DNA from: a virus
DNA length: 32,043 bases
IMG/VR virus record: IMGVR_UViG_3300032087_001289
Location: 1 to 32,043 of that record
Direction: 5' to 3' (one strand)
This document shows, in pieces, positions 3,857 to 10,577 of the stretch. Position numbers and translations under genes: made by a program. Numbering within the stretch: the stretch's first letter is position 1; every line of letters begins with the position of its first letter. The notes beneath the pieces are model-generated. The model searched no databases, had not been told where the DNA came from, and worked only from the letters and a program-made list of their open reading frames with translations.

Positions 3857-5315
3857 ACTTACTACCCTTAGCCTTACGTATAGCTAGGTGCTTTATAAAC
3901 CCCTTAACCACTTCACTTATCTCATTTACCTTAGTAGGTTTAACTTGTGGGAACTCACCGAACTTCTGCTTATACGAATATGCTACCCATCCTGGTTTAA
4001 AACCTTTTTCTTGTGCGTGTAATTCTAACCCACCTAAGAACACTGCTTTATGCTCATCTTGGTAATCAGTAGGCTTTTTAAGTAGCACCAGCTCCTCCTC
4101 AGTAGTTTTAATCTGCTGCGTGATTGGTATCTCGTAACCACATGCACATCTTACCCCTATCATAATACCAAAGCACTGTGGACAATCTCTGGTCTTAGCT
4201 GGCTTTTTCTCTTTAACCTGATTGTTCTCGTTATACGTTTTCTCACCATCATCTAACGACTCAGGCACAATATCTTCTGGAAATCCGTGAGTAGAAATAT
4301 TGCCAGCATGGTCTAGGTAGATTGCATCTGTTTTACTGTCGTGAAGTCTCATTATGCGTCCTGCTCGCTGTACGAATTGTATTTTAGACTTTGTAGGGTA
4401 GCAGTCTATCAAGCATGAGATATGCGGTGCATCGTACCCAGTGCCTAGTAGCATTGAGCAGCTAAGTATCTTAAACTCGCCAGCTTCATGCCCTTTAAAT
4501 ATTGCTTGTCTTTCTGCTTCATCCATGTACCCATCAATATGTACTGCGCCTATACCTACCTTGTTGAATTGCTCTACTAGGTATTTACTGTGCTTTATGG
4601 ATGGACTAAACGCTATGGCTGGACGGTTATACGCTAGCTTGGTGTAGTTTAGGATGATATCACCAGTTAGGTACTCGCTTTGATCCTCTGTTGCCTTGCT
4701 TAGCTCTTTTGGATCGTAATCCTTAGCACCAGTAGACAATCTTTTACTCTTGATGCCTTTAGTATCGACCTTGCTACCACCATAATACTTGACTGGGCAT
4801 AAATAGCCTTTATCGAGTAGCTGACGGGTCGTAACTGGCACAATAAGGTCATTGTATGCTTTACCTAGTCCTTTACTAAATGGCGTAGCAGATAACCCAA
4901 TAAAAGGCACATTACTGTACCTATCCATAAGCTCCTGCATCGTCTTATAGTGAGTATGACACTCGTCCACTATTGCCAGGTCAAATTCTGGTTTACGATA
5001 CATCCTAGCGACTGACTGTATACTGGCTATTTGTATCATGGCATCTCTATTTGTACGCTCATGCATACTCTGTATCACACCTACCTCAATACCAGCTTTA
5101 TCAAAGGCTGCTAAGGCTTGCTGTACTAGCTTTACTCGGTCACAAAAGAATATACACTTCTTACCTTTCTTGACTGCTTCCGTCAGGATGTAAAGTGCTG
5201 TGATAGTCTTACCGAACGAGCAACATGCGCCCAGTATCGGTCTCTTATAGCCCTTAGCTAGTGATTGCCTTAACATGCTTATAGCGCGCTCTTGGTGTGG
5301 TCTTAATTGCATCAT
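3846..5315 (-). CDS. Superfamily 2 DEAD/DEAH-type helicase (489 aa)
   Basis: Motifs in order: Q-motif-like RPHQERAI (residues 5-12), an unusual Walker A GACCSFGKT (29-37), DECH box VDECH (116-120), motif III GLSATPF (140-146), motif V-like LLGTGYDAP and motif VI QRAGRIMRL (316-324). A four-Cys zinc ribbon (CPQC, then CACG) lies near residues 378-394. It is an ATP-dependent nucleic-acid remodeller, probably in phage replication together with the downstream primase-like protein. The start MM is preceded by GGGAGAG, so the first or second ATG could be used. The Walker A carries Cys where Thr/Gly is usual. Confidence 0.93.
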   Translation of the reverse strand: MMQLRPHQERAISMLRQSLAKGYKRPILGACCSFGKTITALYILTEAVKKGKKCIFFCDRVKLVQQALAAFDKAGIEVGVIQSMHERTNRDAMIQIASIQSVARMYRKPEFDLAIVDECHTHYKTMQELMDRYSNVPFIGLSATPFSKGLGKAYNDLIVPVTTRQLLDKGYLCPVKYYGGSKVDTKGIKSKRLSTGAKDYDPKELSKATEDQSEYLTGDIILNYTKLAYNRPAIAFSPSIKHSKYLVEQFNKVGIGAVHIDGYMDEAERQAIFKGHEAGEFKILSCSMLLGTGYDAPHISCLIDCYPTKSKIQFVQRAGRIMRLHDSKTDAIYLDHAGNISTHGFPEDIVPESLDDGEKTYNENNQVKEKKPAKTRDCPQCFGIMIGVRCACGYEIPITQQIKTTEEELVLLKKPTDYQDEHKAVFLGGLELHAQEKGFKPGWVAYSYKQKFGEFPQVKPTKVNEISEVVKGFIKHLAIRKAKGSKYAR

Positions 5316-5329
5316 TCTCTCCCAATGAC

Positions 5330-5482
5330 TTAATTATCTTCTAGCGCTTTGAGTTCTTTTTCGTACTTCATCTGCTCAATCTTGCGTCTAGCTTCTGCTT
5401 GCTTTGCTTGCATAGGTGTTATCTTGCGCCTGTGCTTTACTCTGCTCGGTGTAAAGAACTTAGGTAACTCACTATTAGCCAC
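5330..5482 (-). CDS. Very basic 50-aa protein with GTG start
   Basis: GTG at 5482-5480 follows a strong GGAGG seven bases upstream. The start overlaps the upstream stop as GTGGCTAA. The protein begins ANSELPKFFTPSRVKHRRK and continues as a charged helix rich in Lys, Arg, Glu and Gln. It contains no Cys, no membrane segment and no motif I recognise. The basic N-terminal half and amphipathic helix suggest nucleic-acid or RNA-polymerase binding, but that is inference. It sits between a small membrane protein and the helicase in the early block. Confidence 0.68.
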   Translation of the reverse strand: MANSELPKFFTPSRVKHRRKITPMQAKQAEARRKIEQMKYEKELKALEDN

Positions 5483-5627
5483 TAAACAGCCTCCACACTA
5501 AAACAACATTAAGTAGAACCGAACCCATCATCATGGCATAGCATAGCTCTATAACCGCTTTAGATTCCTTTAGCTCCTCCTGAAGCTCCTTAGTCTTTTT
5601 ATCAAGCAAATAATCTAGACTGCTCAT
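5475..5627 (-). CDS. Small coiled-coil/membrane protein (50 aa)
   Basis: The ATG at 5627 is preferred over the longer frame (ATG at 5687) because AAGGAG lies five bases upstream. The protein is MSSLDYLLDKKTKELQEELK followed by one C-terminal membrane segment (about residues 28-47, MMMGSVLLNVVLVW). The topology is a short charged helix facing the cytoplasm with a membrane anchor. It overlaps the previous gene by 26 bases and the next by 8. It could be a host-membrane effector or a small holin-like protein, but it is far from the lysis block, so an early host-takeover role is more likely. Function unknown. Confidence 0.7.
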   Translation of the reverse strand: MSSLDYLLDKKTKELQEELKESKAVIELCYAMMMGSVLLNVVLVWRLFSG

Positions 5628-5898
5628 GTTTACTCCTTGGTGAATACTTATCGGTGGAAATAAAGTCATGCATATACTTATGTGCATTACCCGTCTTTTT
5701 GCGCTCGTTTAATGTATGCAACGTTTTAACCAGTGCTGAAGTATTGCCCTTGGTCTTATCCATTGTATACCCGTTAACTAGGTATTGGATAGCGCCAGCT
5801 CTTACACTGGCTGTTAGCTGCATGTCACCGATTAACTCGATGACTTCCTCCAGCGTTAACGTACCCTTTAAATACTTATAGTGACTTTCGGTTTTCAT
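5602..5898 (-). CDS. Early protein resembling the DUF3310/SaV-like family (98 aa)
   Basis: The order of elements is ESHYKYLKGTLTLEEVIELI, a helix with TASVRAGAIQYLVNG, then K-x-NTSALVKTLHTLNERK. The H-Y near the start, EEVIELI, A-x-x-YL and a late L-x-K-x-L-x-x-L helix resemble small DUF3310 proteins of many phages, whose function is unknown. The match is by pattern only and could be convergent. The start overlaps the upstream stop as ATGA. The tail (KYSPRSKHEQSRLFA) is basic and overlaps the next gene. Confidence 0.6.
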   Translation of the reverse strand: MKTESHYKYLKGTLTLEEVIELIGDMQLTASVRAGAIQYLVNGYTMDKTKGNTSALVKTLHTLNERKKTGNAHKYMHDFISTDKYSPRSKHEQSRLFA

Positions 5899-8112: not shown

Positions 8113-8408
8113 ATTATTTTTATTTGGGAATAGTGGGTCTTTGATAGGCTGTTGGTCAACCTGTCAGTGTGGTACTACATAGTATATGCAATTACTGGCT
8201 AATCCTTTGCCATTATCCATCGTTCAAACGCTCAATCTGCGTATAAGAGTAATCTCGTTTTCCCACTTCATCCAGTCATCAGCAAATAGATTAAGTAGGT
8301 GTCATCCTACCAATGGCTCTATCAGTGCCACCCTGCTTGGCTCTTTCGAGCTAGTTGACCGTAACGCTGTTTATTCCCGCCTATCAAGGTCGGATAAAGT
8401 TTCTTGCT
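8110..8408 (-). pseudogene. Possible decayed small gene or gene fragments
   Basis: Reading the minus strand, one frame gives SKKLYPTLIGGNKQRYGQLA then RKSQAGWH before a stop (8408-8322). A neighbouring frame gives VALIEPLVG, stop, HLLNLFADDWMKWENEITLI then RRLSV, stop, and MDNGKGLASNCIYYVVPH, stop (down to about 8130). The composition looks protein-like, but it is interrupted by stops and a frame change, and no ribosome site stands out. It might be a degraded gene, or chance. I do not recognise the family. Confidence 0.25.
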
Positions 8409-8517
8409 TTATTGAGCGACTGCACAATGAGACAGTTCTGTTTGACTAGGCTCGACTAGGGAGCTGAATTGACGGTTTATTATGACCAATAACGGTCCAA
8501 GATGTATAACTAGAGAC

Positions 8518-8545
8518 TTGATATAAGAGGGTATTTAGGTATACT
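8518..8545 (+). promoter_or_regulatory. Plus-strand sigma70-type promoter 1
   Basis: TTGATA (8518-8523), 16-base spacer, TATACT (8540-8545), preceded by TAGG. Each hexamer matches the consensus at five of six positions. The predicted start is near 8552. No protein gene follows on the plus strand. The next element is a structured segment and an intrinsic terminator at 8663-8686. The promoter is nearly identical in design to promoter 2 at 8692-8719. Confidence 0.72.
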
Positions 8546-8551
8546 TACTAA

Positions 8552-8686
8552 AGGTTAGCAAGGTATGACTTAACTCCTCGGTTCTATAGTTATACTGCAC
8601 GCCAATGCAGCTAACAACCTAATACTACAACTCTGATGTGTGTTTGTAAAGTGTTAATAGAGAAAGCCCTTAATTGGGCTTTTTTT
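8552..8686 (+). ncRNA. Candidate small RNA 1 (about 135 nt)
   Basis: It lies between promoter 1 and an intrinsic terminator. The 5' part can fold as a three-way junction: closing stem AGGTTAGC (8552-8559) with GCTAAC plus AACCT (8610-8620), stem GTATGACT/AGTTATAC (8563-8570 with 8588-8595, one G-U) and hairpin TGCA/TGCA (8596-8599 with 8606-8609). This is followed by a single-stranded stretch and the terminator. It does not fit a canonical tRNA (no T-loop, oversized arm loop). It is the only transcription unit, with its neighbour, that opposes all the phage genes. Function unknown. Confidence 0.55.
8663..8686 (+). terminator. Intrinsic terminator on the plus strand
   Basis: Stem AAAGCCC (8663-8669), loop TTAATT, stem GGGCTTT (8676-8682), with a run of seven T from 8680 to 8686. 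The T run is on the plus strand only, although A-rich sequence on the 5' side could give weak reverse function. It ends candidate RNA 1. Confidence 0.85.
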
Positions 8687-8691
8687 ATGTC

Positions 8692-8719
8692 TTGAATTCG
8701 ATGGATAGGTAGGTATACT
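8692..8719 (+). promoter_or_regulatory. Plus-strand sigma70-type promoter 2
   Basis: TTGAAT (8692-8697), 16-base spacer, TATACT (8714-8719), again preceded by TAGG. The identical -10, same spacing and shared TAGGTATACT block with promoter 1 argue for duplication or shared control. It starts immediately after terminator 1. Confidence 0.68.
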
Positions 8720-8725
8720 GAAGAT

Positions 8726-8820
8726 GTCGTAAAGGCTGGACGCTTACATGCAAGAGTGATTCGGCTGGGTTGGTAGCTCACGATGAATAGATGGTAGCCC
8801 ACCTAGTGTGGGCTTATTTA
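8726..8820 (+). ncRNA. Candidate small RNA 2 (about 95 nt)
   Basis: Runs from promoter 2 to the hairpin AGCCCAC/GTGGGCT (8796-8802 with 8808-8814) followed by TATTTA. An internal stem GTGA-bulge-GCT with AGC-TCAC (8756-8766 with 8775-8781) is possible. The 3' end reaches the stop codon of the convergent minus-strand gene at 8818, so the two transcripts could overlap by a few bases. The terminator has a weak U tract, so the unit is less certain than RNA 1. Confidence 0.42.
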
Positions 8821-9069
8821 TAGCTCAATACTGCGCTCGATACTCATGATAGCTTCACGCTTATCTCTAACACTATCCTTAACGCCACGCTGACCACTGC
8901 AAAGCATTTTCTTGATTGCGTGTTGCATTGCTGGGCATGTCACATTAAAAGCCACTAGAACATCGTACACGTCCACATAGAGCTGCTCACCCTCTAGCTT
9001 ACCGTTGATAGGTTTAAGGTACTTGTGAGTAATTGGTTGGATTGGCTCATCTCTACGGTAATCAGTCAT
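8818..9069 (-). CDS. Conserved phage hypothetical protein (83 aa)
   Basis: The start at 9069 (MTDYRRDEPIQPI) is preferred to the frame beginning at 9096. Its ATG overlaps the upstream stop as ATGACTGA. The C-terminal half, VDVYDVLVAFNVTCPAMQHA followed by IKKMLCSGQRG and a helix REAIMSIERSIEL, is a recurring pattern in small proteins of many tailed phages. I know the pattern but no established function. It is the last gene of the recombination/nucleotide block, facing the plus-strand RNA units. Confidence 0.75.
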   Translation of the reverse strand: MTDYRRDEPIQPITHKYLKPINGKLEGEQLYVDVYDVLVAFNVTCPAMQHAIKKMLCSGQRGVKDSVRDKREAIMSIERSIEL

Positions 9070-9842: not shown

Positions 9843-10577
9843 TCAATCGTAGTACCTTATTTCTATCTGCTCGCAAGTAAAACCACAATCGCTTGGTACG
9901 TCTCTCTTAAAGTTACCTCTATCTGGATCTAACTCATCAAGGTAAACTGCACCGTCTTTATCTTTGAGTATTGCGTGACCAATTTTGCGCTCTAACTTTG
10001 CCATTCTATCAAAGTGTTCTGGAAAGTCTTTTCTTATTGCATTCCAGTACCCCATACCACCTTTAACACATCCTATGCAATTATTGTTAGGATAGCCTAG
10101 CTGGTACATTAAAGGAATTTTAAAACCCATGTCCTTTATCCAGTCTAAGCACTGCTGCTTAGTGACTCCACTTTCTATAAGTATAAAATCCTCATTAACT
10201 TGGTTGTTAGAGTCTATAAACCTGTCAGCACGATGTTGCTCCTCTACTGTGTATCCAAATATCTGGATATCAGTGGGTCGCTCGTACTTCTTACGCACGT
10301 CTTTTTTAAGAACCATTGTGCATGGTGCGCCAGTCTGACCTTTAATAAATTTACGACTCTCAAACACATCGTAGATACTGTAGTTGTGTTTCTCATTGCC
10401 AATAACTTTTACTGGTATACCTGTTTTCTTAGTAAACTCGTTAAGGAATCGCATATTATCCTCCGACTCCTCTGCAACTCTACAATAAACCACCTCTAAG
10501 TTGTCATACTTTTTACTGGCTAAGTACGTAGCGTAAGCAGAAGCAGCTCCACATGAGAACCAGCTAATAACTCTCAT
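9843..10577 (-). CDS. PP-loop ATPase of the PAPS reductase family (244 aa)
   Basis: The N-terminus MRVISWFSCGAASAYATYLA contains a PP-loop variant (S-C-G-A-A-S-A) that binds the pyrophosphate of ATP or PAPS. Conserved-looking segments include GAPCTMVLKKDVRKK (C-T-x-x-L-K), FGYTVEEQHRADRF, and a Cys cluster NNNCIGCVKGG (about 165-175), with a further C-x3-C near the end. Phage members of this family are common, but their substrate is unsettled: nucleotide sulfation/thiolation or DNA/tRNA modification are options. The GAAS in place of GGKDS makes classical PAPS reduction less certain. The start overlaps NinG by 14 bases with AAGGA upstream. Confidence 0.85.
   Translation of the reverse strand: MRVISWFSCGAASAYATYLASKKYDNLEVVYCRVAEESEDNMRFLNEFTKKTGIPVKVIGNEKHNYSIYDVFESRKFIKGQTGAPCTMVLKKDVRKKYERPTDIQIFGYTVEEQHRADRFIDSNNQVNEDFILIESGVTKQQCLDWIKDMGFKIPLMYQLGYPNNNCIGCVKGGMGYWNAIRKDFPEHFDRMAKLERKIGHAILKDKDGAVYLDELDPDRGNFKRDVPSDCGFTCEQIEIRYYD

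Follow-up and report, generated by a model that had tools for sequence, protein, structure and literature searches.

Two tandem promoter-terminator units on the plus strand

Do two short stretches of a viral genome, each bounded by a promoter-like site and a terminator-like hairpin, give rise to small RNAs, and what might such RNAs do? The DNA analysed here, hereafter called the window, is the linear virus record IMGVR_UViG_3300032087_001289 (32,043 bases). All genes of the window with family matches lie on the minus strand, in agreement with a preliminary description of this locus, and those for terminase, helicase, a methyltransferase, dUTPase, PAPS reductase, NinB/NinG, Erf, exonucleases, the major head protein and portal are recognisable among them. 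No tRNA or tmRNA was found in the window using ARAGORN. On the plus strand, between two blocks of genes, positions 8518-8821 hold two promoter-like sites. Each has the same TATACT box and a spacer of 16 bases, and each is followed by a terminator-like hairpin. The block TAGGTATACT is present at both 8536-8545 and 8710-8719, and the pattern TAGGTATACTNNNNA has no exact match at any other site. The boxes, spacers, shared block and both hairpins were all found at the positions previously given for them:

8518-8545, plus strand: promoter 1 (TTGATA at 8518-8523, 16 nt, TATACT at 8540-8545)
8552-8686, plus strand: RNA1, ~135 nt, predicted start placed from the -10 box; three-way junction, hairpin and terminator
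8663-8686, plus strand: intrinsic terminator of RNA1 (AAAGCCC/GGGCTTT at 8663-8682, T run to 8686)
8692-8719, plus strand: promoter 2 (TTGAAT at 8692-8697, 16 nt, TATACT at 8714-8719)
8726-8821, plus strand: RNA2, ~96 nt, predicted start; three-way junction, then terminator
8796-8821, plus strand: intrinsic terminator of RNA2 (AGCCCAC/GTGGGCT at 8796-8814, then TATTTAT)

When counted as patterns, neither kind of signal is above chance: 4 promoter-like sites were found vs 6.6 ± 2.9 in shuffled sequences, and 2 terminators vs 1.9 ± 1.2. Given these chance-level counts, the claim that the units encode small RNAs stands or falls on conservation. What does exceed chance is the retention of promoters, terminators and stems across diverged lineages, with compensatory changes.

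RNA1 is a conserved three-way-junction RNA

Two IMG/VR contigs, L002 and L003, encode a dUTPase 92-93% identical to that of the window and carry the 8518-8821 stretch at ~74% DNA identity. In their alignment, the two promoters are kept, as are the two terminators and the stems in the centre, while other positions and lengths vary. Additional carriers were retrieved from viral contigs with degenerate patterns built from block A, a conserved element of the opposite strand that is described below. The carriers of block A form six lineages, namely the window, L002/L003, L095/L180, L182, L191 and L177, the region of L177 being identical in L178, L179 and L181. Six contigs from the last viral scan (L186-L190 and L192) were discarded as chance matches on reading.

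RNA1 and its three-way junction are present in five diverged lineages of uncultured phages. The junction is built as follows:

8554-8615, plus strand: three-way junction of RNA1 (stem 1, 8554-8559/8610-8615; stem 2, 8563-8570/8588-8595; stem 3, 8596-8599/8606-8609)

Over the 18 pairs of this junction (alignment A1), 95.4% of the cells are standard pairs, compared with 83.3% after shuffling and 18-35% with slid partners; the structures of the pair tests were derived from the window sequence, so that the slide control is biased in their favour. Changes on both sides occur in 8 of the 18 pairs, and the covariation score was reached by 0 of 500 shuffles. Stem 1 reads GUUAGC/GCUAAC in the window vs GUCGAC/GUCGAU in L095, and stem 2 reads GUAUGACU/AGUUAUAC vs GUUUGGUAA/UUAUCAAAC. 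Stem 3 shows a compensatory change, from TGCA/TGCA in the window to TGGA/TCCA in L002 and L003. The CAA at the junction is invariant while the stems change, and the loop of stem 2 varies in both sequence and length between lineages. Moreover, the RNA1 fold has an energy z-score of -2.8 relative to shuffles, and it pairs better on the plus than on the minus strand in every sequence. Since every sequence loses pairs when it is read on the minus strand, RNA1 is assigned to the plus strand.

The signals around RNA1 are also conserved. Of 8 sequences, 7 retain promoter 1, with TTGATA, TTGAAA or TTGATT at a spacing of 16-17 from TATACT, TAGAAT or TATAAT. The exception is L177, where the best match of the equivalent site to the promoter consensus is ≤7 of 12. 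Terminator hairpins of the RNA1 type, of new sequence, are found in L095, L182 and L191. A covariance model of RNA1 (R1) scored six carriers at 69-77 bits, the next match in ~1.67 million bases of phage loci being at 18.6; R1 was built from the carriers other than L002, and their scores are thus no independent test.

RNA2 has a fold of the same kind

The preliminary description had proposed a three-way junction for the first transcript, a proposal that the co-varying stems strongly support. RNA2 can be added, as it is a three-way junction too in the window and in L003:

8726-8730/8780-8784, plus strand: junction helix of RNA2, with arms 8734-8745/8754-8766 and 8767-8771/8775-8779
8744-8754, plus strand: conserved apical loop region of RNA2, UUACAUGCAAG, unchanged in the window, L002 and L003 on an altered stem

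The energy z-score of the RNA2 fold is -1.9 vs shuffles. The window and L003 differ at nine pairs; on the plus strand each of these is standard in both, while on the minus strand six would be mismatched in one sequence, figures that rest on two informative sequences. Promoter 2 reads TTGATA-16-TATACT in L002 and L003 and TTGGGC-17-TATACT in L095. In L003, the loop and tail of the RNA2 terminator are altered and its stem is still paired. The counterpart of RNA2 in L095 is a plain hairpin, in whose loop the AUGCAAG of the apical loop region recurs. The complement of the RNA2 loop, CUUGCAUGUA, has no other occurrence on the mRNA strand of the window. In L182 and L191, RNA1 is not followed by any RNA2-like unit.

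The common junction layout and promoter sequence suggest that RNA1 and RNA2 may be old duplicates. The RNA1 model gives RNA2 just 5 to 7.6 bits; on that score RNA2 was not retained as a diverged copy of RNA1, and a common origin is unproven. No reading frame common to the lineages is conserved in RNA1 or RNA2, as expected from the earlier proposal that the units encode no protein. An open reading frame on the minus strand (8611-8802) was also rejected, since in L002 and L003 it is interrupted by stops and by changes of frame.

A comparison with related phages had been put forward as the check on a pair of phage small RNAs. Conserved promoters and terminators, together with stems that co-vary in RNA1 and whose changed pairs all stay paired in RNA2, now lend strong support to that pair. 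From this pattern of conservation, RNA1 and RNA2 are very probably structured non-coding RNAs of the plus strand.

A third structured RNA, block A, lies on the minus strand

Outside the coordinates of the preliminary description lies a third structured RNA of the locus:

8126-8460, minus strand: block A, structured RNA with its 5' end facing promoter 1; core of the covariance model, 8257-8460

Over 39 pairs of block A, 93.9% of the cells are paired, compared with 80.6% after shuffling and 28-49% with slid partners, and 18 of the 39 pairs show changes on both sides. The outer helix of 9 bp displays covariation at 8 of its 9 pairs and is nearly all rewritten between lineages (ACUUUAUCC/GGAUGAAGU, AUCUCAUCC/GGAUGAGAU, CAAACAUAC/GUAUGUUUG and ACUCAUAUC/GAUAUGAGU). 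In one hairpin, the loop UCUCAUUGUG is invariant and the stem varies among lineages. Where this hairpin and the outer helix contain G-U pairs, these are consistent with the minus strand (L177 being misaligned in the outer helix there). Block A also contains many invariant unpaired bases, a property often seen in RNAs whose binding partner is a ligand, a protein or polymerase, and its degree of conservation is typical of ligand- or protein-binding RNAs.

Block A ends just ahead of the start codon of a minus-strand gene in L095, L182, L191 and L177. The adjoining gene varies, being an O-like replication initiator in L181 (phrog_678, E 1.5e-10) and a member of phrog_18407 in L182. Helicase genes lie downstream of block A in the window, L182 and L181, further downstream in the window. 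No clear promoter for block A was seen, and that it is the start of a transcript is unproven. If block A is indeed a leader that binds a ligand, a protein or polymerase, phages would have in it a new kind of control element preceding replication genes.

At the far end of block A, an inverted repeat CAATAG/CTATTG occupies 8126-8152 and the equivalent positions in L182, L191 and L003, and in several relatives it lies next to the start of a gene. Its pairs do not clearly favour the minus strand, and the repeat may therefore be a DNA operator or a terminal hairpin.

Much of the set recurs together, and searches found no described counterpart

Block A stands back to back with RNA1 in five of the six lineages, while the adjoining genes differ. 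In these five lineages, block A is followed by an opposite-strand promoter, a three-way-junction RNA and a terminator (L180 ends at the contig edge). L177 has block A and a terminator without the junction RNA, its unit being different and shorter. In L177:1014-1144 (minus strand), after block A, an inverted repeat AAGAACAGGA/TCCTGTTCTT surrounds a possible promoter, and a strong terminator is present. Block A of L095 is 83% conserved and stands beside two promoter-terminator units of very different sequence. Judged from this recurrence, RNA1, RNA2 and block A probably form one functional module.

In L095, the cassette of block A, RNA1 and RNA2 (4082-5689) is flanked by a pentapeptide-repeat gene and by a gene that does not resemble the window's neighbour, and is located on the opposite side of the PAPS reductase gene compared to the window. 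By gene order, the cassette appears to have moved relative to its neighbours between L095 and the window; the six known lineages, all of them metagenomic contigs, are enough for selection on the folds, not for tracing module movement.

We searched for earlier descriptions of these RNAs in several ways. At gathering thresholds, Rfam 15 gave no match for the window, L181, L182, L183 or L003, and relaxed searches gave just sub-threshold, mutually inconsistent matches to sRNAs and leaders. Direct similarity to isolated phages and plasmids was limited to terminator-sized or other short chance matches. Neither covariance model (R1 or block A) had a credible match in eight isolated phages chosen for a related terminase, helicase or methyltransferase or for a short match, namely Pseudomonas PS-1, Pseudoalteromonas HS1, HS5 and H40/1, Vibrio 1.233.A and 1.177.O, Paracoccus KLEP18-1 and Sulfitobacter pCB2047-A. 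Two pattern matches in cellular genomes were judged to be chance, nothing else of block A being present. Overall, no isolated phage, plasmid or cellular genome with the module was found at the sensitivities of these searches, and the exact-pattern and word searches among them would miss strongly diverged copies. Among the titles and abstracts listed for open-licence papers, none described such a module.

Block A, RNA1 and RNA2 thus are, as far as sequence comparison tells, a new conserved RNA module, much of which recurs with its folds kept in several diverged viruses. Detailed knowledge of phage small RNAs is mostly confined to a few laboratory hosts. In the present case, metagenomic sequence by itself yields two small RNAs and one highly conserved structured RNA, backed by covariation, in a recurring layout and with none in Rfam, and the two covariance models offer a direct route to a cultured host carrying the module.

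Possible functions of the module

The RNAs had been suggested to regulate early genes or a host function, or to block read-through by antisense pairing. A role in early-gene regulation could not be established: by duplex energies, calculated without accessibility, RNA1 and RNA2 did not clearly outdo shuffled queries in pairing with any translation-initiation region of the window. Moreover, the complementarity of RNA1 to its cognate block A or RNA2 is not elevated. Given that neither a phage start-region target nor a specific pairing with block A was found, the question shifts to a host target or a protein partner.

The plus-strand units finish at, or close to, the stop codon of the upstream gene that converges on them (8821 vs a gene end at 8818 in the window; RNA1 end at 610 vs a gene end at 550 in L182), and their antisense overlap with that gene is almost nil. 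This weighs against the antisense part of the read-through proposal, while insulation by a two-way terminator is plausible, the terminator being T-rich both ways in L182 and L191.

On balance, we favour a reading in which the locus holds two tandem phage small-RNA genes with their own promoters and terminators, accompanied by block A and acting by the following mechanism. RNA1 and RNA2 would each be made by the host RNA polymerase, from their own sigma-70-type promoter to their own intrinsic terminator, and termination would release them as free RNAs. The RNA1 terminator would also halt transcription coming from the upstream genes, and the downstream operon would start anew with block A as a structured leader, ahead of the helicase and terminase genes. 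The free RNAs would then act in trans, their junction-held loops being offered to an RNA or protein partner of the host or the phage. A more ambitious version is conceivable, although we consider it rather doubtful: the three RNAs would be one new phage RNA device, in which a multi-branched minus-strand RNA of ~200 nt with invariant loops and one or two divergent junction RNAs control entry into the replication operon, as a cassette that moves between phages.

Other explanations have to be weighed against these tandem small-RNA genes. The locus could be a replication-control or origin module: promoters 1 and 2 point away from the block A operon, and their transcription would set how active the origin is or how much of the replication proteins is made, the RNAs being mainly by-products, primers or counter-transcripts. 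Its position upstream of helicase and O-like genes would suit such a role, as would the precedent of lambda pO, which lies beside gene O and affects replication though oop RNA is not the primer (PMC3985674). Nevertheless, the stems of RNA1 and RNA2 show compensatory changes, which shows that the RNA product itself is selected and not the act of transcription alone, and we regard this explanation as unlikely. We judge it equally improbable that RNA1 and RNA2, instead of regulating by base pairing, are decoys for a protein such as a host RNA-binding protein, nuclease or polymerase. The rigid junction fold with its invariant CAA amid changing stems is what a protein-binding RNA might display, and no phage mRNA target was clearly better than the shuffled controls; however, the variable sequence and length of the stem-2 loop speak against a decoy.

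A two-way terminator or insulator, whose hairpins part converging transcription units with the junction RNAs as decoration or stabilisers, is less probable still. It would account for the plus-strand units finishing at or near the converging gene's stop codon and for the RNA1 terminator, whose tail is T-rich on both strands in L182 and L191 and partly so in L095. For insulation alone, though, neither promoter conservation nor covariation of the junction would be required, and the minus-strand tail after the RNA1 hairpin in the window, CTCTATTAAC, is weak. Finally, that chance promoter-like and terminator-like strings arose in an AT-rich gap would agree with the pattern counts, but is refuted by the pair counts and by the promoters, terminators and co-varying stems conserved in diverged lineages, leaving it a negligible probability.

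Comparison with known phage RNAs

In lambda, pO activity influences replication, and cII is the gene to which OOP is antisense (PMC3985674; PMC12197685). Like OOP, RNA1 and RNA2 would be short, intrinsically terminated RNAs that run against early genes, initiated shortly upstream of the replication genes. This arrangement, with opposed transcription and an own terminator, is present in the relatives, and the helicase gene of the window lies further downstream. In contrast to OOP with its cII overlap, RNA1 and RNA2 have hardly any antisense overlap, as they finish at or close to the stop codon of the upstream gene, and by that feature they are not OOP homologues. Another difference is that no divergent structured partner like block A was found described in the cited lambda literature. 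That RNA1 and RNA2 are trans-acting RNAs in a pO/oop-like position is put forward tentatively, as a possibility that falls somewhat short of being our expectation.

Block A resembles the putRNA of HK022 as a structured RNA in early-gene direction, ahead of early genes (PMC9378689), whereas RNA1 and RNA2, ending in their own terminators, would be free RNAs and not parts of an early mRNA. The put RNAs, which act as antiterminators in cis by binding RNA polymerase and suppressing its pausing and termination, are with tens of bases far shorter than the block A core of ~200 nt.

As candidate free small RNAs encoded by a phage, RNA1 and RNA2 are similar to the Hfq-dependent VpdS of VP882 and PreS of lambda (PMC12197685). 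Their terminators have U-rich tails, in line with the Rho-independent terminators of Hfq-dependent sRNAs. VpdS and PreS differ in having known Hfq binding and targets. A hammerhead ribozyme, whose core consists of CUGAUGA and GAAA, was rejected for RNA1: in alignment A1 its junction strands read CAAG/CAAA, without CUGAUGA.

Two genes near the units deserve mention. The minus-strand gene at 9843-10577 belongs to the PAPS reductase family (phrog_424), with hundreds of relatives among viral contigs; genes of this family are frequent cargo of marine phages. The minus-strand gene at 8818-9069 matches only the C-terminal part of larger families (positions 148-215 of 235 in phrog_2452, a related family being named ATPase), and from these partial matches it looks like a shortened or split gene.
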